A stretch of DNA of 64,000 bases from contig JAKSXM010000272.1 in the NCBI GenBank assembly GCA_022575985.1, forward strand, positions 1,860,001 to 1,924,000, read 5' to 3'. Numbering within the stretch: position 1 is the stretch's first letter; each line of letters starts with the position of its first letter. The stretch comes from Anagrus nilaparvatae (lineage: Eukaryota > Arthropoda > Insecta > Hymenoptera > Mymaridae). Shown piece after piece: positions 3,152 to 44,384 of the stretch. A program made the position numbers and the translations under genes. Under the pieces are notes generated by a model. That model did not search any database. It was not told the origin of the DNA and worked only from the letters and a program-made list of their open reading frames with translations.

Positions 3152-3419
3152 ACAGGAAAGGAGGTAAATTTTTTTGTAAAATGAATCAGTAATTAGAGGC
3201 AAGTCAGATTAACTTGAAATTTTTTGAAATTTGTCAAGTAATACAAGGTATAAAGTAGGGTGTAGTGAAAAAAAAAACGTATTTCCGAGACGCTGGTATC
3301 TTAAAGTTATTTTTTTGGGTAGAAGATGAACATGTGTGATTTTCATGAAATTCGGTTAATATTTTTCGGTTTAAACCCCGAAATTTACGGTGAAAATCGC
3401 GCAATTCAGTGAGTTTAAA

Positions 3420-3975
3420 AAATTTTTTTTTCTGAAAATAAATATTTTTTAAAAATATTAAGATTCGCTTAGCCAGAATTTCAAAATAATCCTACATAAC
3501 CTCAAAACTAACGTTTTTGGTATCTAAAATGGCCCGATTAGGGTACTTTAATAAATTTTTTTTTCTGAAAATAAATATTTTAAAAAAATATTAAGATTTG
3601 CTAAGCCAGAATTTCAAAATAATGATTTATGAAGCGCACATAACCTCAAAACTGACGTTTTTGGTATCTAAAATGGCGAGATTAGGGTACTTTACTAAAT
3701 TTATTCTTCTAAAAGTTAATATTTTTCAAAAATATTAAAATTCCTTGAGCCAGAATTTCAAAATAATGATTTACCAAGCCTACATAATCTCCAAACTGAC
3801 GTTTTTGCTATACAAAATGGCGCTATTCGGATACTTTACTAAATTTCTTTTTCTAAAAGTTAATATTTTGCAAAAATATTAAAATTCCTTCCACCAGAGT
3901 TTTAAAATAATGATTTATGAAGCCTACATAATCTCCAAACTGACGTTTTTGGTATACGGCAATATATCCGCTAGT
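3420..3975. repeat. 144-bp tandem repeat array in left arm
   Basis: The GTTTTTGGTAT landmark falls at 3513, 3657, 3801 and 3945, a spacing of exactly 144 bp each time. Each unit carries AATATT-rich DNA, CCAGAATTTCAAAATAATGATTTA and AAAATGGCS..ATT.GGGTAC. The last unit runs straight into the captured LINE fragment. Confidence 0.85.
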
Positions 3976-4660
3976 GGCGTTATGAACGAAGAGGAGGTTG
4001 GCCGTATAGTTGACAGACATTTCCCTACCCACTATGAAAGGGAGGAAGAAAATTACTTTTTTAGAAGATCAAGAAGAGGATATACTTAAATTCACCGTGG
4101 ATGAGCTTGTAACAGCAGTATTCTCGATCAAAAATGAAAAGGCAACAGGACCTGATGGAATACCCACTGAGATTCTGAAAATAGACACGCAAGAGTGTCC
4201 ACAACGTATGTACAATACTTGTTCACGATTGGGTGTCTTCAGCAAACTCTGGAAAAGAGCCAGAATGGTCCTTATCAGTAAGGGTAAAGAGGACTTTATG
4301 CTGCAAAACTATTTGCATCCTCCAGGAATACTGGACGCAGCCCAGAAAATAAATAAAATTATACTGCAAACACGGATACTGAGGGCTGTTGAAACTTTAG
4401 GAGACCTTTCTCCCCAAGAATTCGGGTTCCACCGACAGAAATCAAATATCGATGTCATAAGCGATATCACCCGTGTCCGTTGAGAATTAACAGACAGGCA
4501 ATCTCTACAAAATATCTGCGAAGAATCATCAGCAGTTACCTGAGCGATCGAGAAATATGATTTGAGACTGCGCCAGGAACAAGATTGAGGAGAGTAACTG
4601 CGGTAACAGTTGAAGGAACGGTCCTATGCCGGAGAATACTCATACTGTTGGTTACACGAA
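3975..4660 (+). pseudogene. R1-type LINE reverse transcriptase fragment, left arm copy
   Basis: The fragment reads through the start of an R1-clade reverse transcriptase domain. Visible landmarks are NEEEVGRIVDRHFPTH, then KNEKATGPDGIPTEILK (the KAPGPDGI motif of R1-like LINEs), then WKRARMVLISKGKED, and GFHRQKSNIDVI (the GFR-S-ID motif). The first landmark and the rest lie in different frames, with a frameshift at about 4035-4060. Codon 157 of the second frame is a stop at 4481, after which RT sequence (YLRRIISSYLSDRE) resumes in another frame. The catalytic YADD box is missing. The longest open part (4010-4483) starts at TTG, so it is not a genuine start. It is a captured fragment, not a working gene, and shares its first frameshift with the right arm copy. 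Confidence 0.75.
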
Positions 4661-4860
4661 GTAATGTGAAAATGGTCCCGGGATAGGCTCGGATAAGGTA
4701 GGAAGGGAGTGCAGTTTTAATGGGTAAAAGCCAGTTAAGCCGAGTCCCACATAACTATCAGTACAGATGCTAAACGGTACGCATAACGCATTTCTCTACT
4801 TCCTACCTACAAAAAAAAGCTATTTTCTACTTAATACACAAAAAACGGTGTTGAAAATTG
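4660..4860. other. Inner arm segment, possible LINE 3' UTR
   Basis: This GC-richer 200 bp follows the RT fragment in both arms. Its string GTTTTAATGGGTAAAAGCC with CCGAGTCCCACAT resembles the GTTTTAGT/GGTAAAA-type 3' untranslated regions of several insect R1-clade LINEs, recalled only in general terms. If so, the capture took a LINE copy with an internal deletion. This is inference. Confidence 0.35.
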
Positions 4861-7800
4861 AGGTAGGATGCTTTAAAAAGATCTTCTAGCAACTTCATAC
4901 TTCGGAAAACGATGTGGGATACTTTGGAAAACGGTGTTAGATAATTTGGAAAACGGTGTTAGCTTTTTTTGAATTCGGAATTTAAGTTAGGTAAGTTAGG
5001 ATGCTTCAAAAAGTTCTTCTAGCAACTTTATACTTCGGAAAACGGTGTTGGGTAAATTGGAAAACGGTGTTTGCTACTCTTTAAATAGAAAATTGAGGTA
5101 GGATGCTTCAAGAAAGGTCTTCTAGCAACTTCATACTTTGGAAAACGGTATTAGATACTTTTCAATACGGTGTAAGCTGCTTTTGAAATCGGTGTTAACT
5201 ACTTTTGAATTCGGAATATAAGTTGGGATGCTTCAAAAAGTTCTTCTGGCAACTTAATACTTCGGAAAACGGTGTTAAATACTTTGGAAAACGGTGTTAG
5301 CTATTTTTGAATTCGGAATTTAAGTTAGGATGCTTCAAAAAGTTCTTCTAGCAACTTCATACTTCGGAAAACGTTGTTGGGTACATTGGAAAACGGTGTT
5401 TGCTACTCTTTAAATAGAAAATAGAGGTAGGATGCTTTAAATAGTTCTTATAGCAAATTCATACTTCGGAAAACGGTGTTAGATACTTTGGATTACGGTG
5501 TTAGCTACTTTTGAATTCGGAATATAAGTTGGGATGCTTCAAAAAGTTCTTCTGGCAACTTAATACTTCGGAAAACGGTGTTAAATACTTTGGAAATCGG
5601 TGTTAGCTACTATATAAATAGAAAATTTATATAAATTAATTCAAAAAGCTCGTCTAGCAACTTGATACTTTGGAAAACGGTGTAGGATACTTTGGAAAAC
5701 GGTGTTAGATACTTTGGAAAACGGTTTTAGCTACTTTTGCATTCGGAATTTAAGTTAGGATGCTTCAAAAAGTTTTTCTAGCAATTTCGTACTTTGGAAA
5801 ACGGTGTTGGCTACATTGGAATACGGTGTTAGCTGCTTTTAAATTAGGAATTTGAGGTGGGATGCTTCAAAAAAGTTCTTCTAGCAACTTTATATTCCAG
5901 GAAAACGGTGTTGGTTACTTATTAATTAGGAATTTTAGGTAGGATGTATCAAAAAAGTTCTTCAAGCAACTTCATACTTTGGAAAACGGTGTAGGATACT
6001 TTGGAAAACGGTGTTAGATACTTTAGAATACAGTGTTAACTACTTTTGAATTCGGAATTTAAGTTAGGTAAGTTAGGATGCTTCAAAAAGTTCTTTTAAC
6101 AACTTCATACTTCGGAAAACGGTGTTGGGTACATTGGAAAACGGTGTGAGTTACTTTTTAATTAGGAATGTGAGGTAGGATGCTTTAAAAAAGTTCTTCT
6201 AGCAACTTCATACTTCGGAAAACGGTGTGGGATCTTTGGAAAACGGTGTTACTTACTTTTGAATTCGGAATTTAAGTTAGGATGCTTCAAAAAGTTCTTC
6301 TAGCAACTTCATACTTTGAAAAACGGTGTTGAATATTTTGAAAAACGGTGTTAGCTACTTTTGAATTCGGAATTTAAGGTAGGATGCTTCAAAAAGTTCT
6401 TCTAGCAACTTTTCACTTCGGAAAACGGTGTTGGCTACATTGGAAAACGGTGTTTGCTACTCTTTAAATAGAAAATAGAGGTAGGATGCTTCAAATAGTT
6501 CTTATAGCAAATTCATACTTCGGAAAACGGTGTTAAATACTTTGGAAAACGGTGTTAGCTACTATATAAATAGAAAATTTATATAAATTAATTCAAAAAA
6601 GCTTGTCTAGCAACTTGATACTTTGGAAAACGGTGTAGGATACTTTGGAAAACGGTGTTAGCTACTTTCGAATTTGGAATTTAAGTTAGGTAAGTTAGCA
6701 TGCCTAAAAAAGTTCTTCTAGCAACTTCATACTTCGGAAAACGGTGTTGGGTACATTGAAATACGGTGTAAGCTGCTTTTGAATTAGGAATTTTAGGTGG
6801 GATGCTTCAAAAAGTTCTTCTGGCAACTTAATACTTCGGAAAACGGTGTTAAATACTTTGGAAAACGGTGTTAGCTACTATATAAATAGAAAATTTATAT
6901 AAATTAATTCAAAAAGCTCGTCTAGCAACTTGATACTTTGGAAAACGGTGTAGGATACTTTGGAAAACGGTGTTAGCTACTTTCGAATTTGGAATTTAAG
7001 TTAGGTAAGTTAGCATGCTTAAAAAAGTTCTTTAAGCAACTTCATACTTCGGAAAACGGTGTTGGGTACATTGAAATACGGTGTAAGCTGCTTTTGAATT
7101 AGGAATTTTAGGTGGGATGCTTCAAAAAAGTTCTTCTAGCAACTTCATACCTCGGAAAACTGTATAAGATACTTTGGAAAACGGTGTTAGCTACTCTATA
7201 AATAGGAAATTGATGTAAGATTATTAAAAAAGCTCATTTTGCAACTTTATACTTCGGAAAATGGTGTGGGATACTTTGAAAAACGGCGGTAGTTACTTTG
7301 GAAATCGGTTTTAGCTACTTTTGCATTCGGAATTTAAGTTAGGATGCTTCAAAAAGTTCTTCTAGCAATTTCGTACTTCGGAAAACGGTGTTGGGTACAT
7401 TGGAATATGGTGTTAGCTGCTTTTGAATTAGGAATTTGAGGTGGGATGCTTCAAAAAAGTTCTTCTAGCAACTTTATATTCCAGGAAAACGGTGTTGGTT
7501 ACTTTTTAATTAGGAATTTTAGGTAGGATGTATCAAAAAAGTTTTTCAAGCAACTTCATACTTTGGAAAACGGTGTTAGATACTTTAGAATACAGTGTTA
7601 ACTACTTTTGAATTCGGAATTTAAGTTAGGTAAGTTAGGATGCTTCAAAAAGTTCTTCTAACAACTTCATACTTCGGAAAACGGTGTTGGGTACATTGGA
7701 AAACGGTGTGAGTTACTTTTTAATTAGGAATTTGAGGTAGGACGCTTCAAAAAAGTTCATCTAGCAACTTCATACTTCGGAAAACGGTGTGGGATCTTTG

Positions 7801-10800
7801 GAAAACAGTGTTACTTACTTTTGAATTCGGAACTTTAGTTAGGATGCTACAAAAAGTTCTTCTAACAAATTCATACTTCGGAAAACGGTGTTGGGTACAT
7901 TGGAAAACGGTGTGAGTTACTTTTTAATTAGGAATTTGAGGTAGGACGCTTCAAAAAAGTTCATCTAGCAACTTCATACTTCGGAAAACGGTGTGGGATC
8001 TTTGGAAAACAGTGTTACTTACTTTTGAATTCGGAATTTTAGTTAGGATGCTACAAAAAGTTCTTCTAACAACTTCATACTTCGGAAAACGGTGTTAAGT
8101 ACATTGGAAAACGGTGTGAGTTACTTTTTAATTAGGAATTTGAGGTAGGATGCTTCAAAAAAGTTCTTCTAGCAACTTCATACTTCGGAAAACGGTGTGG
8201 GATACTTTGGAAAACGGTGTTGGGTACATTGGAAAACGGTGTGAGTTACTTTTTAATTAGGAATTTGAGGTAGGACGCTTCAAAAAAGTTCATCTAGCAA
8301 CTTCATACTTCGGAAAACGGTGTGGGATCTTTGGAAAACAGTGTTACTTACTTTTGAATTCGGAATTTTAGTTAGGATGCTACAAAAAGTTCTTCTAACA
8401 ACTTCATACTTCGGAAAACGGTGTTGGGTACATTGGAAAACGGTGTGAGTTACTTTTTAATTAGGAATTTGAGGTAGGACGCTTCAAAAAAGTTCATCTA
8501 GCAACTTCATACTTCGGAAAACGGTGTGGGATCTTTGGAAAACAGTGTTACTTACTTTTGAATTCGGAATTTTAGTTAGGATGCTACAAAAAGTTCTTCT
8601 AACAACTTCATACTTCGGAAAACGGTGTTGGGTACATTTGAAAACGGTGTGAGTTACTTTTTAATTAGGAATTTGAGGTAGGACGCTTCAAAAAAGTTCA
8701 TCTAGCAACTTCATACTTCGGAAAAAGGTGTGGGATCTTTGGAAAACAGTGTTACTTACTTTTGAATTCGGAATTTTAGTTAGGATGCTACAAAAAGTTC
8801 TTCTAACAACTTCATACTTCGGAAAACGGTGTTGGGTACATTGGAAAACGGTGTGAGTTACTTTTTAATTAGGAATTTGAGGTAGGACGCTTCAAAAAAG
8901 TTCATCTAGCAACTTCATACTTCGGAAAACGGTGTGGGATCTTTGGAAAACAGTGTTACTTACTTTTGAATTCGGAATTTTAGTTAGGATGCTTCAAAAA
9001 GGTCTTCTAGCAACTTCATACTTCGGAAAACGGTATTAGATACTTTTGAATACGGTGTAAGCTGCTTTTGAAATCGGTGTTAACTACTTTTGCATTCGGA
9101 ATTTTAGTTAGGATGCTTCAAAAAGATCTTCTAGCATCTTCATACTTCGGAAAACGGTGTTGGGTAAATTGGAAAACGGTGTTTGCTACTCTTTACATTG
9201 AGGTAGGATGCTTCGAGAAAGCTCTTCTAGCAACTTCATACTTTGGAAAACGGTATTAGATACTTTTCAATACGGTGTAAGCTATTTTTGAAATCGGTGT
9301 TAACTACTTTTGAATTCGGAATTTAAGTTAGGTAAGTTAGGATGCTTCAAAAAGTTCTTCTAACAACATCATACTTCGGAAAACGGTGTTGGGTACATTG
9401 GAAAACGGTGTTAGTTACTTTTTAATTAGGAATTTGAGGTAAGATGTTTCAAAAAAGTTCTTCTAGTAACTTCATACTTCGGAAAACGTTGTTGGGTACA
9501 TTGGAAAACGGTGTTAGTAACTTTTTAATTAGGAATTTGAGGTAAGATGTTTCAAAAAAGTTCTTCTAGTAACTTCATACTTCGGAAAACGGTGTTGAAT
9601 ATTTTGAAAAACGGTGTTAGCTACTTTTGAATTCGGAATTTAAGGTAGGATGCTTCAAAAAGTTCTTCTAGCAACATTTCACTTCGGAAAACGGTGTTGG
9701 CTGCATTGGAAAACGGTGTTTGCTACTCTTTAAATAGAAAATAGAGGTAGGATGCTTTAAATAGTTCTTATAGCAAATTCATACTTCGGAAAACGGTGTT
9801 AGATACTTTGGATTACGGTGTTAGCTACTTTTGAATTCGGAATATAAGTTGGGATGCTTCAAAAAGTTCTTCTAGCAACTTAATACTTCGGAAAACGGTG
9901 TTAAATACTTTGGAAATCGGTGTTAGCTACTATATAAATAGAAAATTTATATAAATTAATTCAAAAAGCTCGTCTAGCAACTTGATACTTTGGAAAACGG
10001 TGTAGGATACTTTGGAAAACGGTGTTAGATACTTTGGAAAACGGTTTTAGCTACTTTTGCATTCGGAATTTAAGTTAGGATGCTTCAAAAAGTTCTTCTA
10101 GCAATTTCGTACTTCGGAAAACGGTGTTGGGTACATTGGAATACGGTGTTAGCTGCTTTTAAATTAGGAATTTGATGTGGGATGCTTCAAAAAAGTTCTT
10201 CTAGCAACTTTATATTCCAGGAAAACGGTGTTGGTTACTTATTAATTAGGAATTTTAGGTATGATGTATCAAAAAAGTTCTTCAAGCAACTTCATACTTT
10301 GGAAAACGGTGTTAGATACTTTAGAATACAGTGTTAACTACTTTTGAATTCGGAATTTAAGTTAGGTAAGTTAGGATGCTTCAAAAAGTTCTTTTAACAA
10401 CTTCATACTTCGGAAAACGGTGTTGGGTACATTGGAAAACGGTGTGAGTTACTTTTTAATTAGGAATGTGAGGTAGGATGCTTCAAAAAAGTTCTTCTAG
10501 CAACTTCATACTTCGGAAAACGGTGTGGGATCTTTGGAAAACGGTGTTACTTACTTTTGAATTCGGAATTTAAGTTAGGATGCTTCAAAAAGTTCTTCTA
10601 GCAACTTCATACTTTGAAAAACGGTGTTGAATATTTTGAAAAACGGTGTTAGCTACTTTTGAATTCGGAATTTAAGGTAGGATGCTTCAAAAAGTTCTTC
10701 TAGCAACTTTTCACTTCGGAAAACGGTGTTGGCTACATTGGAAAACGGTGTTTGCTACTCTTTAAATAGAAAATAGAGGTAGGATGCTTCAAATAGTTCT

Positions 10801-13800
10801 TATAGCAAATTCATACTTCGGAAAACGGTGTTAAATACTTTGGAAAACGGTGTTAGCTACTATATAAATAGAAAATTTATATAAATTAATTCAAAAAGCT
10901 CGTCTAGCAACTTGATACTTTGGAAAACGGTGTAGGATACTTTGGAAAACGGTGTTAGCTACTTTCGAATTTGGAATTTAAGTTAGGTAAGTTAGCATGC
11001 TTAAAAAAGTTCTTCTAGCAACTTCATACTTCGGAAAACGGTGTTGGGTACATTGAAATACGGTTTAAGCTGCTTTTGAATTAGGAATTTTAGGTGGGAT
11101 GCTTCAAAAAAGTTTTTCTAGCAACTTCATACCTCGGAAAACTGTATAAGATACTTTGGAAAACGGTGTTAGCTACTCTATAAATAGAAAATTGAGGTAA
11201 GATTATTAAAAAAGCTCATCTTGCAACTTTATACTTCGGAAAATGGTGTGGGATACTTAAAAAAAACGGTGGTAGTTACTTAGGAAATCGGTTTTAGCTA
11301 CTTTTGCATTCGGAATTTAAGTTAGGATGCTTCAAAAAGTTCGTCTAGCAATTTCGTACTTCGGAAAGCGGAGTTGGGTACATTGGAATATGGTGTTAGC
11401 TGCTTTTGAATTAGGAATTTGAGGTGGGATGCTTCAAAAAAGTTCTTCTAGCAACTTTATATTCCAGGCAAACGGTGTTGGTTACTTTTTAATTAGGAAT
11501 TTTAGGTAGGATGTATCAAAAAAGTTCTTCAAGCAACTTCATACTTTGGAAAACGATGTTAGATACTTTAGAATACAGTGTTAACTACTTTTGAATTCGG
11601 AATTTAAGTTAGGTAAGTTAGGATGCTTCAAAAAGTTCTTTTAACAACTTCATACTTCGGAAAACGGTGTTGGGTACATTGGAAAACGGTGTGAGTTACT
11701 TTTTAATTAGGAATGTGAGGTAGGATGCTTCAAAAAAGTTCTTCTAGCAACTTCATACTTCGGAAAACGGTGTGGGATCTTTGGAAAACGGTGTTACTTA
11801 CTTTTGAATTCGGAATTTAAGTTAGGATGCTTCAAAAAGTTCTTCTAGCAACTTCATACTTTGAAAAACGGTGTTGAATATTTTGAAAAACGGTGTTAGC
11901 TACTTTTGAATTCGGAATTTAAGGTAGGATGCTTCAAAAAGTTCTTCTAGCAACTTTTCACTTCGGAAAACGGTGTTGGCTACATTGGAAAACGGTGTTT
12001 GCTACTCTTTAAATAGAAAATAGAGGTAGGATGCTTCAAATAGTTCTTATAGCAAATTCATACTTCGGAAAACGGTGTTAAATACTTTGGAAAACGGTGT
12101 TAGCTACTATATAAATAGAAAATTTATATAAATTAATTCAAAAAGCTCGTCTAGCAACTTGATACTTTGGAAAACGGTGTAGGATACTTTGGAAAACGGT
12201 GTTAGATACTTTGGAAAACGGTTTTAGCTACTTTTGCATTCGGAATTTAAGTTAGGATGCTTCAAAAAGTTCTTCTAACAACTTCATACTTCGGAAAACG
12301 GTGTTGGGTACATTGGAAAACGGTGTGAGTTACTTTTTAATTAGGAATTTGAGGTAGGATGCTTCAAAAAAGTTCTTCTAGCAACTTCATACTTCGGAAA
12401 ACGGTGTGGGATCTTTGGAAAACGGTGTTACTTACTATTGAATTCGGAATTTAAGTTAGGATGCTTCAAAAAGTTCTTCTAACAACTTCATACTTCGGAA
12501 AACGGTGTTGGGTACATTGGAAAACGGTGTGAGTTACTTTTTAATTAGGAATTTGAGGTAGGATGCTTCAAAAAAGTTCTTCTAGCAACTTCATACTTCG
12601 GAAAACGGTGTGGGATACTTTGGAAAACGGTGTTAGATACTTTGGAAAACGGTGTTAGCTACTTTTCAATACGGTGTAAGCTGCTTTTGAAATCGGTGTT
12701 AACTACTTTTGAATTCGGAATTTAAGTTAGGTAAGTTAGGATGCTTCAAAAAGTTCTTCTAACAACTTCATACTTCGGAAAACGGTGTTGGGTACATTGG
12801 AAAACGTTGTTTGCTACTCTTTAAATAGAAAATTGAGGTAGGATGCTTCAAAAAAGGTCTTCTAGGAACTTCATACTTCGGAAAACGGTATTAGATACTT
12901 TTGAATACGGTGTAAGCTGCTTTTGAAATCGGTGTTAACTACTTTTGCATTCGGAATTTTAGTTAGGATGCTTCAAAAAGATCTTCTAGCAACTTCATAC
13001 TTCGGAAAACGATGTGGGATACTTTGGAAAACGGTGTTAGATACTTTGGAAAACGGTGTTAGCTTTTTTTGAATTCGAAATTTAAGTTAGGTAAGTTAGG
13101 ATGCTTCAAAAAGTTCTTCTAGCAACTTTATACTTCGGAAAACGGTGTTGGGTAAATTGGAAAACGGTGTTTGCTACTCTTTAAATTGAGGTAGGATGCT
13201 TCGAGAAAGGTCTTCTAGCAACTTCATACTTTGGAAAACGGTATTAGATACTTTTCAATATGGTGTAAGCTGCTTTTGAAATCGGTGTTAACTACTTTTG
13301 AATTCGGAATTTAAGTTAGGTATGTTAGGATGCTTCAAAAAGTTCTTCTAACAACTTCATACTTCGGAAAACGGTGTTGGGTACATTGGAAAACGGTGTT
13401 AGTTACTTTTTAATTAGGAATTTGAGGTAGGATGCTTCAAAAAAATTCTTCTAGCAACTTCATACTTCGGAAAACGGTGTGGGATCTTTGGAAAACGGTG
13501 TTACTTACTTTTGAATTCGGAATTTAAGTTAGGATGCTTCAAAAAGTTCTTCTATCAACTTCATACTTCGGAAAACGGTGTTGGGTACATTGGAAAACGG
13601 TGTGAGTTACTTTTTAATTAGGAATTTGAGGTAGGATGCTTCAAAAAAGTTCTTCTAGCAACTTCATACTTCGGAAAACGGTGTGGGATACTTTGGAAAA
13701 CGGTTTTAGATACTTTGGAAAACGGTGTTAGCTACTTTTTAATTCGGAATTTAATTTAGGTAAGTTAGGATGCTTCAAAAAGTTCTTCTAGCAATTTCAT

Positions 13801-16800
13801 ACTTCGGAAAATGGTGTTGGGTACATTGGAAAACGGTGTTTGCTACTCTTTAAATAGAAAATTGAGGTAGGACGCTTCAAAAAAGGTCTTCTAGCAACTT
13901 CATACTTCGGAAAACGGTATTAGATACTTTTGAATACGGTGTAAGCTGCTTTTGAAATCGGTGTTAACTACTTTTGCATTCGGAATTTTAGTTAGGATGC
14001 TTCAAAAAGATCTTCTAGCAACTTCATACTTCGGAAAACGATGTAGGATACTTTGGAAAACGGTGTTAGATACTTTGGAAAACGGTGTTAGCTTTTATTG
14101 AATTCGAAATTTAAGTTAGGTAAGTTAGGATGCTTCAAAAAGTTCTTCTAGAAACTTTATACTTCGGAAAACGTTGTTGGGTAAATTGGAAAACGGTGTT
14201 TGCTACTCTTTAAATTGTTGTAGGATGCTTCGAGAAAGGTCTTCTAGCAACTTCATACTTTGGAAAACGGTATTAGATACGTTTCAATACGGTGTAAGCT
14301 GCTTTTGAAATCGGTGTTAACTACTTTAGAATTCGGAATTTAAGTTAGGTAAGTTAGGATGCTTCAAAAAGTTCTTCTAACAACTTCATACTTCGGAAAA
14401 CGGTGTTGGGTAAATTGGAAAACGGTGTTTGCTACTCTTTAAATTGAGGTAGGATGCTTCGAGAAAGTTCTTTTAGCAACTTCATACTTTGGAAAACGGT
14501 ATTAGATACTTTTCAATACGGTGTAAGCTGCTTTTGAAAACGGTGTTAACTACTTCTGAATTCGGAATTTAAGTTAGGTAAGTTAGGATGCTTCAAAAAG
14601 TTCTTCTAACAATTTCATACTTCGGAAAATGGTGTTGGGTACATTGGAAAACGGTGTTTGCTACTCTTTAAATAGAAAATTGAGGTAGGATGCTTCAAAA
14701 AAGGTCTTCTAGCAACTTCATACTTCGGAAAACGGTATTAGATACTTTTGAATACGGTGTAAGCTGCTTTTGAAATCGGTGTTAACTACTTTTGAATTCG
14801 GAATTTAAGTTAGGTAAGTTAGGATGCTTCAAAAAGTTCTTCTAACAACTTCATACTTCGGAAAACGGTGTTGGGTACATTGGAAAACGGTGTTAGTTAC
14901 TTTTTAATTAGGAATTTGAGGTAGGATGCTTCAAAAAAATTCTTCTAGCAACTTCATACTTCGGAAAACGGTGTGGGATCTTTGGAAAACGGTGTTACTT
15001 ACTTTTGAATTCGGAATTTAAGTTAGGATGCTTCGAAAATTTCTTCTAACAACTTCATACTTCGGAAAACGGTGTTGGGTACATTGGAAAACGGTGTGAG
15101 TTACTTTTTAATTAGGAATTTGAGGTAGGATGCTTCAAAAAAGTTCTTCTAGCAACTTCATACTTCGGAAAACGGTGTGGGATACTTTGGAAAACGGTGT
15201 TAGATACTTTGGAAAACGGTGTTAGCTACTTTTTAATTCGGAATTTAAGTTAGGTAAGTTAGGATGCTTCAAAAAGTTCTTCTAGCAATTTCATACTTCG
15301 GAAAATGGTTTTGGGTACATTGGAAAACGGTGTTTGCTACTCTTTAAATAGAAAATTGAGGTAGGATGCTTCAAAAAAGGTTTTCTAGCAACTTCATACT
15401 TCGGAAAACGGTATTAGATACTTTTGAATACGGTGTAAGCTGCTTTTGAAATCGGTGTTAACTACTTTTGCATTCGGAATTTTAGTTAGGATGCTTCAAA
15501 AAGATCTTCTAGCAACTTCATACTTCGGAAAACGATGTGGGATACTTTGGAAAACGGTGTTAGATACTTTGGAAAACGGTGTTAGCTTTTTTTGAATTCG
15601 AAATTTAAGTTAGGTAAGTTAGGATGCTTCAAAAAGTTCTTCTAGCAACTTTATACTTCGGAAAACGGTGTTGGGTAAATTGGAAAACGGTGTTTGCTAC
15701 TCTTTAAATTGAGGTAGGATGCTTCGAGAAAGGTCTTCTAGCAACTTCATACTTTGGAAAACGGTATTAGATACTTTTCAATACGGTGTAAGCTGCTTTT
15801 GAAATCGGTGTTAACTACTTTTGAATTCGGAATTTAAGTTAGGTAAGTTAGGATGCTTCAAAAAGTTCTTCTAACAACTTCATACTTCGGAAAACGGTGT
15901 TGGGTACATTGGAAAACGGTGTTAGTTACTTTTTAATTAGGAATTTGAGGTAGGATGCTTCAAAAAAATTCTTCTAGCAACTTCATACTTCGGAAAACGG
16001 TGTGGGATCTTTGGAAAACGGTGTTAGCTATTTTTGAATTCGGAATTTAAGTTAGGATGCTTCAAAAAGTTCTTCTAGCAACTTCATACTTCGGAAAACG
16101 TTGTTGGGTACATTGGAAAACGGTGTTAGTAACTTTTTAATTAGGAATTTGAGGTAAGATGTTTCAAAAAAGTTCTTCTAGTAACTTCATACTTCGGAAA
16201 ACGGTGTTGAATATTTTGAAAAACGGTGTTAGCTACTTTTGAATTCGGAATTTAAGGTAGGATGCTTCAAAAAGTTCTTCTAGCAACATTTCACTTCGGA
16301 AAACTGTATAAGATACTTTGGAAAACGGTGTTAGCTACTCGATAAATAGAGAATTGAGGTAAGATAATTCAAAAAGCTCATCTAGCAACTTTATACTTCG
16401 GAAAATGATGTGGGATACTTTGGAAACGGTGTTAGTTACTTTGGAAAACGGTTTTAGCTACTTTTGCATTCGGAATTTAAGTTAGGATGTATCAAAAAAG
16501 TTCTTTTAGCAACTTCATACTTCGGAAGACGGTGTTAGATACTTTGGAATACGAGATTAGTTGCTTTTGAATTAGGAATTTGAGGTAGGATGCTTCAAAA
16601 AGTTCTTCTAGCAACATTTCACTTCGGAAAACGGTGTTGGCTACATTGGAAAACGGTGTTTGCTACTCTTTAAATAGAAAATAGAGGTAGGATGCTTCAA
16701 ATAGTTCTTATAGCAAATTCATACTTCGGAAAACGGTGTTAGATACTTTGGAATACGGTGTTAGCTGCTGTTGAATTAGGAATTGGAGGTGGGATGCTAC

Positions 16801-17067
16801 AAAAAAATTCTTCTAGCAACTTCATACTTCAGAAAACGGTATTAGATACTTTTGAATACGGTGGAAGCTTCTTTTGAAATCGGTTTTAACTACTTTTGAA
16901 TTTGGAATTTAAGGTAGGATGCTTCAAATAGTTCTTATAGCAAATTCATACTTCGGAAAACGGTGTTAGATACTTTTTAATTAGGAATTTGAGGTAGGAT
17001 GCTTCAAAAAAGTTCTTCTAGCAACTTCATACTTCGGAAAACGGTGTTCGATACTTTGGAAGTATTC
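4861..17067. repeat. 12.2-kb satellite core of the foldback element (~102-bp monomer)
   Basis: Roughly 120 diverged copies of a monomer of about 102 bp fill the space between the arms. A typical monomer reads GATGCTTCAAAAAGTTCTTC, TAGCAACTTCATACTTCGG, AAAACGGTGTT, GGGTACATTGG, AAAACGGTGT, then TACTTTTGAATTCGGAATTTAAGTTAG (or TTTTTAATTAGGAATTTGAGGTAG). The short motif GGAAAACGGTGTT therefore appears twice per monomer. Monomers alternate between the AATTCGG and AATTAGG types. Larger duplications are visible: 5400-6700 recurs at about 9720-11000 (offset 4320 bp at the start, shrinking to 4299 after a 20-odd bp indel). Short open frames in it, such as 9068-9259, are by-products of the repeat. Confidence 0.95.
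7640..8990. repeat. 204-bp higher-order repeat inside the satellite
   Basis: The ACGGTGTTGGGTACATT landmark (ACGGTGTTAAGT in one unit) falls at 7681, 7885, 8089, then 8213, and then 8418, 8622 and 8826. Spacings are 204 bp, except one partial unit of 124 bp at 8089-8213. Two monomer types alternate to form each unit, and neighbouring units are nearly identical. This indicates recent unequal exchange or amplification at this point in the array. Confidence 0.85.
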
Positions 17068-17289
17068 AATTTTCAACACCGTTTTTCTGTGTATAAAGTA
17101 GAAAATGGCTTTTTTTTTGTAGGTAGTAGGAAGTAGAGAAATGCGTTATGCGTACCGTTCAGCATCTGTACTGATAGTTATGTGGGACTCGGCTTAACTG
17201 GCTTTTACCAATTAAAACTGCACTCCCTTCCTACCTTATCCGAACCTATCCCGGGACTGTTTTCACATTACTTCGGGTAATCGACAGTA

Positions 17290-18020
17290 TAAGTATCCCC
17301 CGGCATTGGAAGCCTAAGTACCTGATCGTACATGATGTTCCATAGATCCGGCCTGAGGACCATTCCTTGAATTGTTACTGCAGTTACTCTCCTCAATCTT
17401 GTTCCTTGCGCAGTCTCAAATCATATTTCTCGATCGCTCAGGTAACTGCTGATGATTCTTCGCAGATATTTTGGCACCTGGAATTTCCTTAACCCTTCAA
17501 TGAAATTGCTCTATCTTGCTGATATTGCTTATGACATCGATAGTTGACTTCTGTTGGTGGAACCCGAATTCTTGGGGAGAAAGTTCTCCTGAAGTTTCAA
17601 CAGCCCTCAGTATCCGTGTTTACAGTATCTTTTTATATATTTTCTGGGCTGCGTCCAGTATTCCTGGAGGATGCAAATAGTTTTGCAGCATAGTGTCCTC
17701 TTTACCCTTACTGATAAAGACCATTCTGGCTCTTTTCCAGAGTTTGCTGAAGACACCCATTCGTGAACAAGTATTGTAAATACGTTGTTGACACTCTTGC
17801 GTGTCTATTTTCAGAATCTCAGTGGGTATTCCATCAGGTCCTGTTGCCTTTTCATTTTTGAGCGAGAATACTGCTGTTACAAGCTCATCCACGGTGAATT
17901 TGGGTATATCCTCTTCTTGATCTTCTAAAAAAGTAATTTTCTTCCTCCCTTTCATGGTGGGTAGGGAAATTTCTGTCAACTATACGGCCAACCTCCTCTT
18001 CGTTCTTAACGCCACTAGCG
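17290..18020 (-). pseudogene. R1-type LINE reverse transcriptase fragment, right arm copy
   Basis: Read on the minus strand, this copy shows the same RT landmarks as the left arm: NEEEVGRIVDRNFPTHHE, KNEKATGPDGIPTEILK and WKRARMVFISKGKED. It then continues further than the left copy, through YLRRIISSYLSDRE, an ETAQGTRLRRVTAV stretch and RPDLWNIMYDQVLRL, which corresponds to the GPDLWN region just before the YADD box of R1-type enzymes. The reading frame is broken by the shared frameshift near 17950, by stops at about 17618 and in the YLSDREI region, and by others. The catalytic aspartates are absent. The two arms share the early frameshift but differ by point changes and by the deletion in the left copy, so the fragment was already damaged when the arms formed, or the arms have been homogenised since. 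Confidence 0.75.
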
Positions 18021-18720
18021 GATATATTGCCGTATACCAAAAACGTCAGTTTGGAGATTATGTAGTCTTCATAAATCATTATTTTAAAATTCTGGTGGAA
18101 GGAATTTTAATATTTTTGCAAAATATTAACTTTTAGAAAAAGAAATTTAGTAAAGTACCTGAATAGCGCCATTTTGTATACCAAAAACGTCAGTTTGGAG
18201 ATTATGTAGGCTTGGTAAATCATTATTTTGAAATTCTGGCTCAAGGAATTTTAATATTTTTGAAAAATATTAACTTTTAGAAAAAAAAATTTAGTAAAGT
18301 ACCCTAATCGCGCCATTTTGGATACCAAAAACGTCAGTTTTGAGGTTATGTGCGCTTCATAAATCATTATTTTGAAATTCTGGCTTAGCGAATCTTAATA
18401 TTTTTCAAAAATATTAATTTTCAGAAAAAAAAATTTATTAAAGTACCCTAATCGAACCATTTTGGATACCAAAAACGTTGGTTTTGAGGTTATGTGCGCT
18501 TTGTTAATCATTATTTTGAAATTCTGGCTTAGCAAATCTTAATATTTTTTAAAAATATTAACTTTGAGAAAAAAAAATTTTGTAAAGTACCTGAACTGCG
18601 CCATTTTAGATACCAAAAACGTTAGTTTTGAGGTTAAGTAGGATTACTTTGAAATTCTGGCTAAGCGAATCTTAATACTTTTAAAAAATATTTATTTTCA
18701 GAAAAAAAAATTTTTTAAAC
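18020..18720. repeat. 144-bp tandem repeat array in right arm
   Basis: The inverse landmark AAAAACGTYAG occurs five times, with its C at 18044, 18188, 18332, 18475 and 18620 (spacing 144, 144, 143, 145). The left arm has four units, so copy number changed in one arm after the palindrome formed. Confidence 0.85.
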
Positions 18721-20997
18721 TTACTGAATTGCGCGATTTTCACCGTAAATTTCGGGGTTTAAACCGAAAAATACTAACCGAATTTTATGTAAATCACACA
18801 TGTTCATCTTCTACCCAAAAAAATAACTTTAAGATACCAGCGTCTCAGAAATACGTTTTTTTTTTTTCACTACACCCTAGTGTAAAGTATGTGAAGTATA
18901 TATAATAAATATTTGTAAAGTATCCGAGTAAGTTTGGTTAGTTGGAGTTGGTCCAAAACGTTGTAAAAATTGGTCAAACTGTTTTTTTGGCCAAAAATAA
19001 ATAAATATTTAATATCTCTGGCAATATTAAATGAATTTTGGTGAAAATAGGTACCAGGGGTTTTTTTGAGTCACTGATTACGATTTTAATGTCAGAAATT
19101 TCTCAAACACCCTGTAAACAGGAAAAACTACCCTTATTTAGGGGTTTTTTTTTAATATTTTAGAATTTAAGCTAAAAATATCAAATAAATGCTATTTTTT
19201 CAGAAAAATTAATGAAATTTTATTTTTTTATTATGCTCCGAAATTGAGATATAAGATTTAATAACAGGGTGGTTAACTACCCCAAATTTTTTGTTATTTG
19301 ATTTTAATAACCCCCCTCCCAAAATTTTCTAGATTCGTTACTGATTGCAAAGTGGTTTTTTTTAAAGCCCAATTCAAAATATCCTTTAAAATAACGCTCA
19401 TAGCACAGAAACTTGCCTTAAGCCAAAAAAAATAATTTTAAGTTCTTAAAATCCTTATTATTCTTTACCCCTTTATCGAAGTTTAGAATTAAAAATTATT
19501 TTAAGTCCCTAAATCAAAATTATGCAAAGTCCTGAAATGAAAATAATTTTCAGTTCAAAATACAACATTAAACATGTTTTTTAAATCGAAATCTAAACTC
19601 AAATCATTTTAAGTCTCTAAATTGAAATAATTCTAAGTTTATTTACCCCTTCCCCATAACGTGCTTGAAAAACCCCCTGCCTATAAACATTTGTCATGTA
19701 AAAATTTTCCATAAAATTTAATATTTACACAAATCTTTGATTTTTGTGCCTTTTTTATTACTTACTTTAGGTTTTACGGCTAATTTACAGTTGAAAAAAG
19801 TCGGAATTTGAAATTTGACTGCAGCATTTTATTGAGTTATCATCTAAACATACTGTACTTATTAGAAATAGAGGGTCCTAATGGATTAACTTAAGTTTTA
19901 TAAAATTGCTGAAAAAAAAATATTTTTGGCCATAACTTTTTTGTGGCATATGATAACGAGATGTACAATGAATCATTTCAAAGTTAAGGTTAACGCCAAA
20001 ATTTCATGTTATTTGCAAAATTTCTATTGGAACGACCATGTTTTTAAAGTTTCACCTCACAAAAAAAAGCATTAACCGTTATAAACATAACATAGGCAAT
20101 TTTAAACGGCCAAATGTTCTTACAGATGAAAAATTAAACCAAAAATTAAAATACAAATAACTGCATAATTGCTAAAAAATTTGGCTGTTTAAAATAAATA
20201 ATGTTCATGCTGCTGGCCAAAAACTGAAAATGCATTACAAAATATAAGATTTTATCCAACTTTGTCAGTCCAGAACATAAACAATAATTACTCGATAGGG
20301 CTAAAAATGAGTGGACATGTTTAGGAACAAGTGTTCTGACTTTTCATTAAAGGATTTTTTTTTCAAGCACCTCAGTCCAGATGGCGCTAAAAAATTAGCA
20401 TCAAAAAAATTGGAAAAAAGTTTATTTTGCCCATAACTTTTTTTCTGCTTATTGTAAACGGTTATGGTTGGTCTCAAAATTTTCCCAATTTTGTCTTCTT
20501 GCAAAATGATACTTATAATTTTTGTTGCAAAAGTAATATTTTTCAAGATATTTACGCCAGAACGACATGGTTTCTTAATTTTTCGTTAAACAACCATTTT
20601 CGCCATGTCATGTCTCCTTTGATATTAATCGTACGAAAAAAAAATTCGCTTCATTTGTCAAGTAAAATACTTCATATTAGCAATATATAATTTTTTTTGT
20701 AATACCAACAGTTTTTAGGTAAAATTAAAAAAACAAAAATCACTTTTCCTTGCTCTATAACTCGGAAGAGGTTCATTTAAATGAAAAATTGTATTTCATG
20801 TTTTTATGATAAAAAATGATAATTTATCGATTGGTTACGTTATTTTTTTTCACCCCTCCCCTGCCCCTAACCCATTTCGCAACTATCAGAAGTTGTTTAC
20901 TCGGGTACTGGGCACCTTTCTTAACAAAATTTAAGTTACTTGAAGTATTTACTACTTGCCTCTAATTACTGTTTCGAGATTTTACCTCCTTTCCTGT

Positions 20998-33084: not shown

Positions 33085-35060
33085 ATTCTACAATAAGCAG
33101 CTGTGATTTTTTTTCTAAATTTTATGACAGTATGGGCCCCTTTTTAAATTTCTATTTTTATTCATGTACCGATATATTTGTATACTAACTCTTGCGTTAT
33201 TATTACCTAATAATAGAATCGAATAAAAATCCACTTTCCTTATAATTTAAATATGTAATTTTTATTTCAAAATTATAAAGATACCTCCTCTATATTTATG
33301 ATTACGAGATCACAAAATTGAAAAGATTCCCTTTAGTCAATTAGTGAATCGATATATTTCAATATTGGCTGCAATAAATCACATAAATGCGATATAAAAA
33401 ATGTAAGTCAAATAAAAATTTTGATATAAATCGCAAAAATACGATAAATTGCATAAATGGCAATGCGATATAAAAAACCTAAGTCAAACCGAAATTTAGA
33501 TATCTCAGCATTCTCCGATCTTGAGTTATATGTAAATGTATGTCCCTCTCATTTAGAACAATGAATATAAAGTGAGAGAAAATATTTTCATATATATTAG
33601 ACTGACAAAAAAAAAATCGACTTTTCGATTTTTTAAGGTGCTCAAGCGTTTTTGGGTACCACTTTATGAAAAAAAAGCCCTTGGTAAAGCGCATCTAAAA
33701 ATATTTAGTCGTTGGACAGCGCCAAAGCGTTTTCGATTTTTGAAAATTGGTTCAGGAGCGTCGGGGGGGATTACAGCTACTAAATTTAAAAGGCAACAAA
33801 AAAATAAAACTTCGGGAGGTATTTCATAGTTTTTTTGGTCACTAAAAACGATGGAATCATTTATTTTGAATTATTTCTTTAAGGCAAAAAGTTATGAGCT
33901 AATTTCGGTCTTAAAAATATCAAAAATTGGACAGTTTTTGGCGTCAAAAACATGCTGCGGACTAAAAAATGTTTAGAAATTATTTTACAGGGGTATTTCG
34001 AATGATCATTGGGTCACTAAAAACGATGAAATCGGTTATTTTCATTTATTCTTTGCTGATTCAGAGTTATGCACCAAATAATGTAGCTTGATTTCCCAAA
34101 TATAGCATTTTTTTGAGTTAAATGTCAATGTCAAGCGTACAGAGAACTCTTTTGAGCCTCTAGAAAGGCATGTTATCATAGTTTTGTGTTTTTTGAACAC
34201 CGATGCATTGGTTGTAATAAAAAAATAATAAATAAATAAAAAAATACATAAAAAAATAAAAATAATAAAAATAATAAAAATAATAAAATAATATAAATAA
34301 TAAAAATAATAAAATAATAAAAATACATAAAAAAATCTAAGCAACCAATGCATCGGTGTTTAAAAAACACAAAACTATGATAACTTACCTTTCTAGAGGC
34401 TCAAAAAAGTTCTCTGTACGCTTGACAGTCATTTAACTCAAAAAAATGCTATATTTTGGAAATCAAGCTACAATATTTGGCGCATAACTCTGAATCCGCA
34501 AAGAATAAATGAAAATAACCGATTTCATCGTTTTTAGTGACCCAATGATCATTCGAAATACCCCTTTAAAATAATTTCTAAACATTTTATAGTCCGCAGC
34601 ATGTTTTTGACGCCAAAAACTGTCCAATTTTTGATATTTTTAAGACCGAAATTAGATCATAACTTTTTGCCTTAAAGAAATAATTCAAAATAAATGATTT
34701 CATCCTTTTTAGTGACCAAAAAAACTATGAAATACCCCCCGAAGTTTTATTTTTTTGTTGCCTTTTAAAATTAGTAGCTGTAATCCCCCCCGGCGCTCCT
34801 GGACCAATTTTCAAAAATCGAAAACGCTTTGGCGCTGTCCAACGACTAAATATTTTTAGATGCGCTTTACCTAGGGCTTTTTTTTTCATAAAGTGGTACC
34901 CAAAAACGCTTGAGCATCTTAAAAAATCGAAAAGTCGATTTTTTTTTTGTCAGTCTAATATATATAAGCAAAGTTAGCTTTTGCTTGCGATGGAGCGTCG
35001 CGTGACCGTACTCCCTCTATTCCATAAATCCAAAGCTATCGATTTGGCTTAATATACATA
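33085..35060. repeat. Dispersed repeat B, copy 1, split by a foldback element
   Basis: 33085-33596 plus 34959-35060 match 44385-45020. Shared strings include TAAGCAGCTGTGATTTTTTT, ACTAACTCTTGCGTTATTAT, a run of GCGATAAATCGCATAAATGCG-like phrases, TCTCCGATC.TGAGTTATAT, and the distal TTTGCTTGCGATGGAG.GTCGCGTGACC. The distal part can form two hairpins: AAGCAAAG with CTTTTGCTT, and CCAAAGCTA with GCTTTGGCTT. This could mark a terminus. Class unknown. Confidence 0.7.
33597..34958. mobile_element. Foldback element F1 (1.36 kb) with TATATA target
   Basis: TTAGACTGACAAAAAAAAAA at 33597 is inverted at the right end (TTTTGTCAGTCTAA, to 34958). The ~620-bp arms are inverse copies (33597-34215 and 34333-34958), around an A/T-rich centre made of AATAATAAA repeats. 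TATATA lies on each side. In repeat B copy 2 (about 44918-44935) the same site reads GAGATATATATAAGC without insert, so the element entered a TATATA site. The arms carry mirror-image open frames (e.g. 33572-33829 and its inverse) with no known domain. No transposase. Confidence 0.85.
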
Positions 35061-35064
35061 TATA

Positions 35065-35767
35065 TTAGACTGCCAAAAAAACGTTTTTTCAATTTTTTAA
35101 GGTGCTCAAGCGTTTTCGGGTATCATTTAATGAAGAAAAAGTTCTACGTAAACCACATCTAAAAATATTTAGTCGTTGAGCAGCGCCGAAGCATTTTCGA
35201 TTTTTGAAAAATGGCTCAGGATCGTCGGGTGGGTGTAAAGCTGCTAAATTAAAAAGGCAGCAAAAAAATTTCGTAGTTTTTTTGGTCACTGAAAACGATG
35301 AAATCATTTATTTTCAATTATTTTTTTAAGGCAACAAGTTATGGGCTAATTTAGTTGTTAAAATATCAAAATTTGGACAGTTTTCGACGTCAAAAACTTG
35401 CTGCAGACTAAAAAATGTTTAAAAAATATTTTAAAAGGACATTGCAAATTTTTTGGCTAACTAAAAATGATTAAATTGGTTATTTTTATTTATTCTTGAT
35501 GGATTCAGAGTTATGGGCCAAATATTGTAGCTTGAATCTCCAAATTTTTATATTGGATTGATTGATATTTTAACCGCTAAAATTAGCCTATAACTTGTTG
35601 CCTTAAAAAAATAATTGAAAATAAATGATTCCATTGTTTTCACAAGGCCAAAAAGCTATGAAATATCCCCCAAAATTTTATTTTTATGTTGCCTTTTAAA
35701 TTTAGCAGCTTTACACCCGCCCGACAATCCTGAGCAGTTTTTCAAAAATCGAAAATGCTTTGGCACA
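35065..35767. mobile_element. Truncated relative of foldback element F1
   Basis: TTAGACTGCCAAAAAAACG at 35065 begins a diverged copy of F1, again right after a CATATATA string. It has the same order of landmarks (GGTGCTCAAGCGTTTT, TTGGACAGTTTTCGACG). The inverse arm starts at about 35560 and stops abruptly at about 35767 (GCTTTGGCA), before the outer ~120 bp. The mirrored open frames at 35089-35307 and 35615-35818 give the same peptide core (LFNLAALHPPD) and are an effect of the palindrome. Confidence 0.75.
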
Positions 35768-36720: not shown

Positions 36721-36804
36721 TCGCGACAAGAGAGAGAGAGAGATAACGTTACGGGCAATTAACACTGTATTTCTTATATTTTCTATAATTAATAAAAATA
36801 TATA

Positions 36805-37894
36805 TGTCGCAGGCGTTTTGTTGTTTTCCGTCACTTTGTAAATAGCCTAGGCGATTTATGAAGTGACGAGGCCGGATTAGGCACTTTGTATTTTAAAATA
36901 AAAATATAATTTTTAAATAAAAATTACCATAAAAATAACGAAAGTACTAGTCATTTTGTAGCGAGTGAAAAAGATTATTTTAAGAGGATTAAAAAAATAT
37001 AAAAGTACTAGTCGTTTTAGAGTTTTGAAAATTTATCATTTAATGACTCATTCAATCTCATAATATAAATATAAATAATAAAATTATTAGCAATATTTTT
37101 CAAACGTATTTTTGTATTTTAATAAGAAAGTTAACTATGTTTTGTTTGCGTATGTTGATTTACCATGGCATCGTGAATTACATAAAAGTTTGTTTTTAAA
37201 ACATGAACATTTTAAGGTTTTACACTTATTTTTTAATGCTGCGCAATTGCATTTGCTAACACCCTGGCCACCAAAAATAGAAATTTTAGCAGCTGCTTCT
37301 CGCAAAGAAATACCTTCTTTTTGAAGAGGCTCATTTATTTTGATTTTTGTTGGCTGTAATTCATTCCGCAGGTACCAATTATTTAAGGTACCAACGGTAG
37401 TTGAAATTTGATAAAGTTCATTCCGAAAATCTACGACTTTGCCTAGAATATTATGGGCATCTAAAGGTCCGCGATCAACCTTAGGTACACCTACTAAAAC
37501 CGTTTGCCCAATATTAATTGGACAAAATTTTTTATTACTGTTTTGTAGCATGTCTTCAGCTGCTCTTTTCATACCATTGTAAGCTTCATTTTGTTCATTT
37601 GTAATAGTTATTTCATTTGAACAAAATAAACAAAATATATTGAAATTGATAGAGGCATAAAATGATAAATTTTCAAAACTCTAAAACGACTAGTACTTTT
37701 ATATTTTTTTAATCCTCTTAAAATAATCTTTTTCTCTCGCTACAAAATGACTAGTACTTTCGTTATTTTTATGGTCATTTTTATTTAAAAATTATATTTT
37801 TATTTTAAAATACAAAGTGCCTAATCCGGCCTCGTCACTTCATAAATCGCCTAGGCTATTTACAAAGTGACGGAAAATAACAAAACGCCTGCCA
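36805..37894. mobile_element. Ginger-like DNA element, internally deleted (1.09 kb)
   Basis: The ends are long inverted repeats of about 230-240 bp: GCAGGCGTTTTGTTGTTTTCC on the left and its inverse with one change on the right. They continue through CGTCACTTTGTAAATAGCC, TGACGAGGCCGGATTAGGC and ACTAGTCATTTTGTAGCGAG. The outermost bases are TGTCGCAGG and TGGCAGG, and TATA lies at 36801-36804 and 37895-37898. Between the repeats lies the C-terminal part of an integrase-type transposase gene on the minus strand. Long TIRs beginning TG and a KRBA2-like integrase fit the Ginger group, whose transposases derive from gypsy-type integrases. The catalytic core is missing, so this copy needs a transposase in trans. 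Confidence 0.7.
37135..37640 (-). pseudogene. C-terminal fragment of a KRBA2-like (Ginger) transposase
   Basis: The open frame contains an ATG at 37570, but the family resemblance continues upstream in the same frame to about 37640, with CLFCSNEITITNEQNEAYNG (a two-cysteine motif, then an asparagine/alanine-rich helix). So the ATG is internal and the gene is cut off at its 5' side. After the ATG come VNIGQTVLVGVPKVDRG with GPLDAHNILGKVVD, YLRNELQ, and SLREAAAKISIFGGQGVSKC. These match the VDRG and GGQG blocks that follow the integrase core in proteins annotated as KRAB-A domain-containing 2-like in insects. The C terminus has the cysteine cluster C-x-C-x6-C-x4-C-x-C-x6-C-x3-CH. The DDE integrase core is missing. 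In context the fragment sits between long inverted repeats, a deletion derivative of a full element. There are no internal stops in about 165 codons. Confidence 0.7.
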
Positions 37895-37911
37895 TATATA
37901 TATAAATATAT

Positions 37912-39811: not shown

Positions 39812-40190
39812 ATATATATAATATGGGAAAAACAAATAGGAAAAGAATTTTTATGTGCAATAATACAATAAATAAATTAATAATGAAATTGATACCTTTT
39901 TCTTATCGATATAATGAGATTCAAAACTATAAATTACCAAGCTTGGATTTACGATATAAATAATTTTGATGTGCGCTAATATAATCGATGTCAGGTGAAG
40001 CCACGTGCTTAAAAATGTTGATCGATGCCTTCTAACCTTCAACAAATCACAGTCGTCACACTCAAATTTTATATCATCAAACACGCCAAATTTCCAAAAT
40101 TACATTTCAAAATTAATAATAAAAAATGATCGCGAAAAAATACTGATCAACATTGACCAAAAATCCAACTCCAAATCTCAATAATTATTT
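39812..40190. other. AT-rich spacer without recognised feature
   Basis: Nothing supported. Short overlapping open frames on both strands (39751-39963 and 39851-40084) have no recognisable domain, and the first begins inside the F2 arm. Confidence 0.45.
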
Positions 40191-43341: not shown

Positions 43342-43540
43342 ATTAGTCATGGTCTTAAATGCAATACACATGAAGATGTTATTACAAAAAATATCTATCG
43401 TAACGCGTTACTATAGAACGCTGAAAGAGGCATGACTGAGAGGGAAGAGGGGAAGGATCGCTAACTCGCTCTGTCTTTCGTTTTTTTATCTTTCCTCTCA
43501 ATCATGCCTATATCATAGTAACTAGTTACAATATATACTA
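43342..43540. repeat. Dispersed repeat C, right part of the interrupted second unit
   Basis: AATGCAATACACATGAAGATG, ATTACAAAAAATATC, CGCGTTACTATAGAACGCTG and the CTCTGTCTTTCGTTTTTTTATC palindrome arm match 40490-40690 of unit 1. The palindrome of this unit is partly deleted (about 43440-43470). Confidence 0.7.
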
Positions 43541-43546
43541 TATATC

Positions 43547-44196: not shown

Positions 44197-44384
44197 GTAA
44201 AGTAAGTAAAGATATCATAACAGTCGCAAGCTTTAAAAAAAAACTATGTGAAGCATTTAATAAAACTATAAATAATGAATAAAAACGCTGCCAAAGGCAC
44301 TAAGATTCCTCAAGCAATGACGAGTGTATACGCGTATCCGGTATCACGGCGAGAATTTTATTTACATAATTATATCTATACTAT

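Follow-up and report, generated by a model that had tools for sequence, protein, structure and literature searches.

A foldback element with a satellite interior

The 64,000-nucleotide stretch analysed here (the window) covers positions 1,860,001 to 1,924,000 of the forward strand of contig JAKSXM010000272.1 in the Anagrus nilaparvatae assembly GCA_022575985.1. At 3256-18879 it carries an element in which two inverted arms enclose a long array of satellite DNA, and which a first-pass annotation, made from the letters alone, had described as a giant foldback element with inverse arms of 1.6-1.8 kb and an imperfect 8-bp flanking repeat. The arms, at 3256-4861 and, inverted, at 17061-18879, are indeed 1,606 and 1,819 bp long and 94.6% identical in alignment (1,605 aligned columns, 215 gap columns; blastn pieces at E = 0). 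Both tips start with TAGGGTGTAGTGAAAA, left matching right, and the 8-mers bordering the element, GTATAAAG on the left and GTGTAAAG on the right, form the imperfect repeat that had been described. The parts of the element are as follows.

3248-3255, no strand: left target-site repeat GTATAAAG, one mismatch against the right copy
3256-3957, + strand: left outer arm, with the terminal inverted repeat starting TAGGGTGTAGTGAAAA and 144-bp tandem repeats at 3420-3955; 82 matches in the genome
3958-4825, + strand, borders approximate: broken LINE reverse-transcriptase piece of the left arm, 3' part with a short poly-A (tblastn 38%, E 2e-23)
4826-4861, + strand: left inner arm end, passing into a partial satellite monomer (arm alignment)
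4862-17060, + strand: 12.2-kb satellite array in a single orientation, monomers of about 102 bp made of 22-bp sub-repeats (Tandem Repeats Finder)
17050-17069, - strand: turnaround point of the array, found exactly at three further loci, of which C196 has one and C342 two
17061-17117, - strand: right inner arm end with partial monomer (arm alignment)
17118-18020, - strand, borders approximate: right arm, LINE piece as in the left arm (37.8% and 41% identity, E 2e-36)
18021-18879, - strand: right outer arm, with 144-bp tandem repeats (18034-18740) and the terminal inverted repeat
18880-18887, no strand: right target-site repeat GTGTAAAG

The two arms are an inverted pair, as annotated, but they are not simple. 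Going inwards, the terminal piece of each arm is followed by 144-bp tandem repeats (by Tandem Repeats Finder, the left arm has about three and the right about five), a broken piece of a non-LTR (non-long-terminal-repeat) element, an inner stretch of about 50 bp and, last, a partial satellite monomer. The broken piece derives from a long interspersed nuclear element (LINE), and its reverse-transcriptase frames are 37.8-41% identical to the LINE at 49658-51379 of the window (tblastn; E 2e-36 for the right arm and 2e-23 for the left). That LINE has long open frames over 48868-51379 with a reverse transcriptase (Pfam RVT_1, E 8e-25), and the named relatives of its protein, among the best 120 of 1,164, come from mirid bugs (Nesidiocoris and Apolygus, 44-50%) and a fruit fly (Bactrocera, 46%).

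Between the arms, Tandem Repeats Finder reports a period of 102 across most of 4862-17060. For a 15-base core of the satellite, with up to three mismatches allowed, all 233 occurrences within 4850-17065 are forward, and a single reverse copy stands at 17073, in the inner right arm. The annotated 12.2-kb array of about 102-bp monomers was thus rightly seen, and it has one orientation. The monomer spacing is mixed (mostly 102 or 103, with 124, 133, 204, 227, 229 and 296 as well). Nor do array and arm simply abut: a partial monomer is present in both inner arm ends, and the right junction is a turnaround within the satellite. Long head-to-tail arrays are the mark of satellite DNA, and those found here extend over 12.2 kb in the window and about 31 kb in the copy called C1b. 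Elsewhere in the 64-kb window, there are no copies of arm or satellite beyond matches of 20-38 bp.

We also considered the arm as a source of the satellite. The monomer was compared with the arm's first 30, 60 and 160 bp, with the 144-bp repeat and with the LINE piece, and shuffled sequences scored equal or higher in 282-300 of 300 cases; on these comparisons, an arm origin of the monomer would be rejected for now.

Copies of the family across the genome

The assembly (488.7 Mb, 393 contigs) was searched with the left outer arm, an exact satellite 28-mer and an exact element end, and the matches were grouped by hand from their listed positions into 26, 17 and 13 loci, respectively. Of 160 candidates for the arm, 40 were scored, and these gave 82 matches. 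The 28-mer, which samples only part of the satellite and has no exact copy in the window array, occurs 90 times in the assembled genome (control 0), and all 90 occurrences fall, by position, in loci where arms were seen; two of its 17 loci were missing from the list of arm matches, and arms were present at both on reading. The exact end TAGGGTGTAGTGAAAAAA occurs 42 times (control 0) and added 13 further loci. Family ends or arms are found at 41 loci at least, of which 29 were read in part or whole, 23 of them with satellite; the other 12 of these at least 41 loci are unread, and eight of those are known by the 18-base end alone. Fifteen copies were read end to end, and in 14 of them, on 7 contigs, satellite lies between the arms, in elements of 3.7-34 kb. 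The expectation that other arm copies would flank the same monomer, on which the first-pass annotation had staked its proposal, was therefore borne out. Of 14 partly read loci, nine (L023, L024, L027, L051-L055 and L058) have satellite beside an arm or a LINE piece.

Copies differ considerably in layout and size. Of the 14 fully read copies with satellite, 12 have it extending inwards from each of the two arms, the two sides inverted to each other, with one change of direction inside the array or, in C342a, several. C79a has satellite in reverse orientation only, and the window copy is an extreme of asymmetry, its turnaround separating 12.2 kb of satellite from a few tens of bases. Among thirteen measured copies, the shortest is C342d, at 4.5 kb, and the longest C1b, at 34.1 kb; the first and last satellite matches lie 1.0 to 30.8 kb apart, interruptions included. 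C342s, read later than these, is 3.7 kb long. Arm length also differs among copies. C342d is without the LINE piece and keeps an apparent LINE tail (TACCTAC and poly-A, on one side), and it may have lost the piece. We had considered it as a LINE-free ancestor, a candidate set aside because the retained tail makes a loss possible.

Two of the loci deserve separate mention. A second satellite-bearing copy, at C317:1838455-1845100, is found some 18 kb upstream of the window copy, to which it is less similar than to C95a. At L009, from 2331, the arm copy is broken inside the LINE piece by other DNA starting CAGGCACCCCTCGTTATCCGCGG, which we take, from its likeness, to be perhaps a pogo/Tigger-like transposon.

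Copy alignments and the tests of flanks, target sites and monomers used a set of 13 copies, 12 fetched and the window copy, which omits C342s (its right end was recognised later), the partly read loci and L056. Element ends were placed by arm match, and that of C79a was moved out by 4 bp, its match having begun at query base 5. Exact 8-bp target-site repeats border eight of the 13 copies, a number that shuffling of partners reached in 1 of 20,000 trials; besides ATATATAT, they are TTATACAT, ATATATAC, CTGTTTAT and TTGTACAT. The 310-bp flanks on each side of the 13 copies gave no match between copies at E 1e-5. C317c, which has a second right arm, was scored with its outer right end and shows no repeat; its inner right end gives ATATATAT on both sides, a post hoc observation that was left uncounted. 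Long terminal inverted repeats, tandem repeats in the arms (the 144-bp repeats of both window arms) and target-site repeats at dispersed copies characterise foldback (FB-like) DNA transposons, and all are found here, which upholds the foldback identity first proposed.

Elements of the hAT superfamily make 8-bp target-site repeats of the form nTnnnnAn and have TAGGG-type ends. By eye, this form fits TTATACAT, ATATATAT, ATATATAC, CTGTTTAT, TTGTACAT and both window flanks, a weak sign where targets are TA-rich; together, target repeats and ends suggest a hAT-like element. The Mutator superfamily makes repeats of 9-11 bp, whereas the copies with exact repeats have 8 bp, and the longer flank matches (9 bp in C317a and 10 bp in C95a) include bases of the element's own end. 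At least eight of 150 scored hAT domain matches have open frames over 570 aa, and the match closest to any of the 42 exact ends lies 10.9 kb away (C147:1902365), the next at 44 kb. One hAT family, with equal domain scores and 575-aa frames, is present at C62:3228550, C62:63305017, C147:1902365, C157:3749535, C342:2058658 and C342:9808405. The 3' sides of two intact copies, 901 bp each, are alike throughout (99.4%) and hold tandem repeats of about 293 bp, in a stretch that stops short of the hAT ends; this family may have been recently active.

Evidence on transport between sites and growth in place

The alignments between copies run from the element tip through the arm and into the satellite with no break, and in eight pairs the satellite is 90.5-99% identical. 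C317a and C95a share 1,701 non-satellite columns at 98.8% and 1,267 satellite columns at 97.7%; for C1a and C1b the figures are 1,398 columns at 99.3% and 1,530 at 97.7%, and for C317a and C342b 1,703 columns at 98.5% and 526 at 98.5%, while C342b and C95a share 518 satellite columns at 99.0%. Because arm-to-satellite alignments are unbroken between copies at unrelated sites, the satellite, as these alignments read, moves with the foldback element family. The turnarounds point the same way. One of them is the same 24-mer, without a mismatch, in C1a, C1b, C95a and, at three places, C342a, and C342c has one within three mismatches; the window's own turnaround 20-mer, at 17050, recurs unchanged in C196a, C342s and C342:8090935; from right arm through turnaround into array, the window copy aligns with C342s over 1,696 columns at 83% identity. 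Since monomers of opposite orientation joined at one exact point are unlikely to recur, we infer that the four loci of either set, spread over three contigs, have their turnaround by descent.

Growth within arrays was read from the nearest relatives of 788 monomers in the 13 copies, for which shuffling of labels leads to an expectation of 17% in the same array. The same-array share is 0% in C342c, 1-5% in C317a, C342b, C147a and C95a, 10% in C196a, 25% in C342d, 33% in C1a, 46% in C317c, 75% in C342a and C79a, 84% in C1b and, on average, 91% in the window copy, the share being inflated for copies with few close relatives sampled (C79a and the window copy). The nearest outside relatives of the window monomers are mostly in C196a (37 of 82) and C317c (23 of 82). 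Window monomers are on average 98.2% identical to their nearest relative, whereas the window arms reach at best 95.7% and 96.9% (420 bp) with other copies; the monomers are closer than the arms, and growth after the split is therefore favoured for this copy. Larger events are visible in other arrays: in C1b, an 11.0-kb block is repeated at an offset of 8.8 kb with 96.6% identity, and in C342a, a 3.9-kb block, turnaround included, at 3.7 kb with 98.0%. The window array has no repeated block of 250 bp or more at 96%; its long repeats lie at offsets of 4.0-4.3 kb and are 86-87% identical with indels counted, one of 464 bp reaching 94.4%. It is likely, because its monomers are mostly each other's nearest relatives, that most of the window's 12.2 kb grew in place after the split from the copies read, a reading that a closer, unread relative could alter. 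The first-pass annotation had set movement of the array with the element against expansion in place. Movement of the satellite is supported by the unbroken alignments, but the same-array share in the window copy indicates that the two are not alternatives.

Taking these results together, we consider it very probable that this is a foldback DNA transposon family, its arms enclosing the 102-bp satellite in 14 of the 15 fully read copies, which spreads the satellite by means of a transposase from elsewhere. The assembled sequence supplies the shared ends, 8-bp target-site repeats, unrelated flanks, arm-plus-satellite blocks, shared turnarounds and multi-kilobase duplications (C1b and C342a). A hAT-like transposase supplied from elsewhere would mobilise the family, copy number could rise through repair after excision, and each array would grow or shrink after insertion by unequal exchange or slippage. 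The window copy has its arms, satellite edge and turnaround in common with other loci, and most of its 12.2 kb was then likely added locally.

Several observations weigh against such a family. Five partly read loci (L009, L029, L057, L059 and L060) show no satellite in the stretch read, which either ends within the LINE piece or is interrupted by other DNA, and L056, a 0.8-kb copy read end to end, has arms and a LINE remnant only. Five of the 13 copies are without an exact target-site repeat (one mismatch in the window copy, two in C342b and C342d, three in C342c and six in C317c), as are C342s and L056 outside that set. The exact repeat of C79a depends on a left end set 4 bp outside the arm match, ATATATAT makes up four of the eight exact repeats, and partners taken from different copies match too, in 26 of 156 pairings. 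For half of the eight aligned pairs, identity is lower in the satellite (90.5-95.6%) than in the remainder (98.5-99.0%; the four satellite values are 95.5%, 95.6%, 92.6% over 95 columns and 90.5% over 454 columns for C317a/C342a). The window copy is absent from the 22 pairs that share most satellite at 95% or above (smallest 386 bp), and transport of its full 12 kb is therefore not shown. Moreover, no transposase with TAGGGTGTAGTG ends was found among the 150 scored hAT domain matches (412 candidates), other transposase families not having been searched.

It is also conceivable that the family spread without a transposase, and that segmental duplication, ectopic recombination or gene conversion among arm-bearing loci moved the satellite with its turnarounds. 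Composite or partly duplicated copies do exist (the second right arm of C317c), blocks of array are duplicated within copies, and recombination between copies has been proposed for the foldback-like Galileo, as far as the accessible text goes (PMC3573991). Unrelated flanks and exact 8-bp repeats abutting the ends in eight of 13 copies, however, fit the insertion of a unit with fixed ends and not regional duplication, and we regard this account as unlikely. Purely in-place expansion, in which a copy brought nothing but its arms or at most a few monomers to the new site and each array then grew independently, would explain the 75-91% of same-array neighbours in the window copy, C1b, C342a and C79a and the large internal duplications in C1b and C342a. 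It sits badly with the 1-5% found in C317a, C342b, C147a and C95a, with the four of eight pairs that share 0.5-1.5 kb of satellite at 97.7-99.0% and keep it in register with the arms, and with exact turnaround points common to four loci each; for C317a, C342b, C147a, C95a and C1a/C1b it is already contradicted by these comparisons, and as a general account it is very improbable. That the structure is an assembly artefact, a palindrome or a satellite contig misjoined between two unrelated arm copies, has next to no likelihood: the arms differ by about 5% plus indels, as those of a mirrored contig would not, and the recurrence of this architecture in 14 copies read end to end, from 7 contigs, speaks against misassembly.

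It is a long-standing question how a satellite arrives at many chromosome sites in the first place, and carriage by transposons has earlier been proposed from shared flanks and in-situ signals. In the transposon family that we favour, a single genome lets both steps be read from sequence, transport from in-register arrays, turnarounds, flanks and target-site repeats, and local growth from nearest relatives within the same array and from duplications of several kilobases; the system is datable, and each copy allows transport and growth to be told apart. Provided that they are real at full length, such copies would mean that a foldback element can contain tens of kilobases of satellite. We also offer, tentatively and with some doubt, the stronger proposal that the satellite is the body of the transposon and has no chromosomal life of its own: all assembled arrays would be element-borne, whole inverted arrays would jump with their turnarounds, and landings would seed expansion to about 31 kb. 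Were this true, the element would act as a self-propagating satellite and would supply the link so far missing between scattered seeds and satellite blocks on the chromosomes.

Neighbouring structures and comparison with known systems

Other inverted structures lie in the same window. At 56636-57957 there is a foldback-like element with arms of about 550 bp (84%), overlapping a 123-bp tandem array at 56876-57418, for which no target-site repeat was found. A 1.1-kb element at 36798-37903 has inverted ends of 269 bp (95.5%) around a 181-aa open frame, which has a cysteine-rich motif at its C terminus and matches nothing in Pfam. At its end begins a palindrome (37898-39824) with 844-bp arms that are 98.6% identical, each with an open frame of 115-125 aa; judged by this identity, the palindrome is very young. 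Further long palindromes, 79-94% self-complementary, are found at 41079-43343, 54278-55268, 34455-35544, 43543-44199 and 61849-62447, and an inverted repeat at the window edge (1-914) overlaps a 151-bp tandem array at 376-850. From these, the genome seems rich in foldback structures.

Among known systems, FB/FB4 of Drosophila melanogaster has long inverted arms with tandem repeats, as does the family described here; its arm repeats are short (tens of bp), and it is not known to have a large satellite interior. A literature search in which subscription journals were not covered found no report of the present foldback family, and the nearest case was Tetris.

Tetris, of the Drosophila virilis group, is a foldback element: its arms are long, it has tandem repeats inside and no conserved coding frames, and its target-site repeats measure 8-10 bp; its authors suggested the Mutator superfamily (PMC4079207, in the portion available). 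The same portion describes repeat arrays that reach kilobases, flanked by two outer arm domains in fibre fluorescence in situ hybridisation (PMC4079207). It is the closest precedent, compared here by description and not by sequence, with the foldback layout and arm-flanked arrays in common. The tandem repeat of Tetris is, however, the arm's own 220-bp outer domain, whereas the 102-bp satellite resembles neither the arm start nor the 144-bp repeat nor the LINE piece and forms an inner body of up to about 31 kb. Moreover, larger Tetris arrays were suggested by its authors possibly to have disrupted transposition (PMC4079207), while in the present family the array interiors are common to copies at different sites.

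Galileo, of the P superfamily in Drosophila, likewise has long arms, extended both by tandem repeats and by inner sequence drawn into them, and chimeric copies; it differs in its 7-bp target repeats and arms of up to about 1.26 kb, and the accessible part of the report describes no satellite body (PMC3573991). The array-carrying transposons include miDNA4 of Xenopus, a miniature inverted-repeat transposable element, the central repeats of Helitron/DINE elements, and the BIV160/pearl elements (PMC12628747 and PMC9659126, both in part). They share with our family a non-autonomous element with a tandem array that can expand and spread, but they are described as miniature elements or Helitrons, whereas ours is a foldback family of 3.7-34 kb in which the long elements are mostly satellite. 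The family is thus close to known array-bearing transposons, and the evidence for transport of its satellite is unusually direct.

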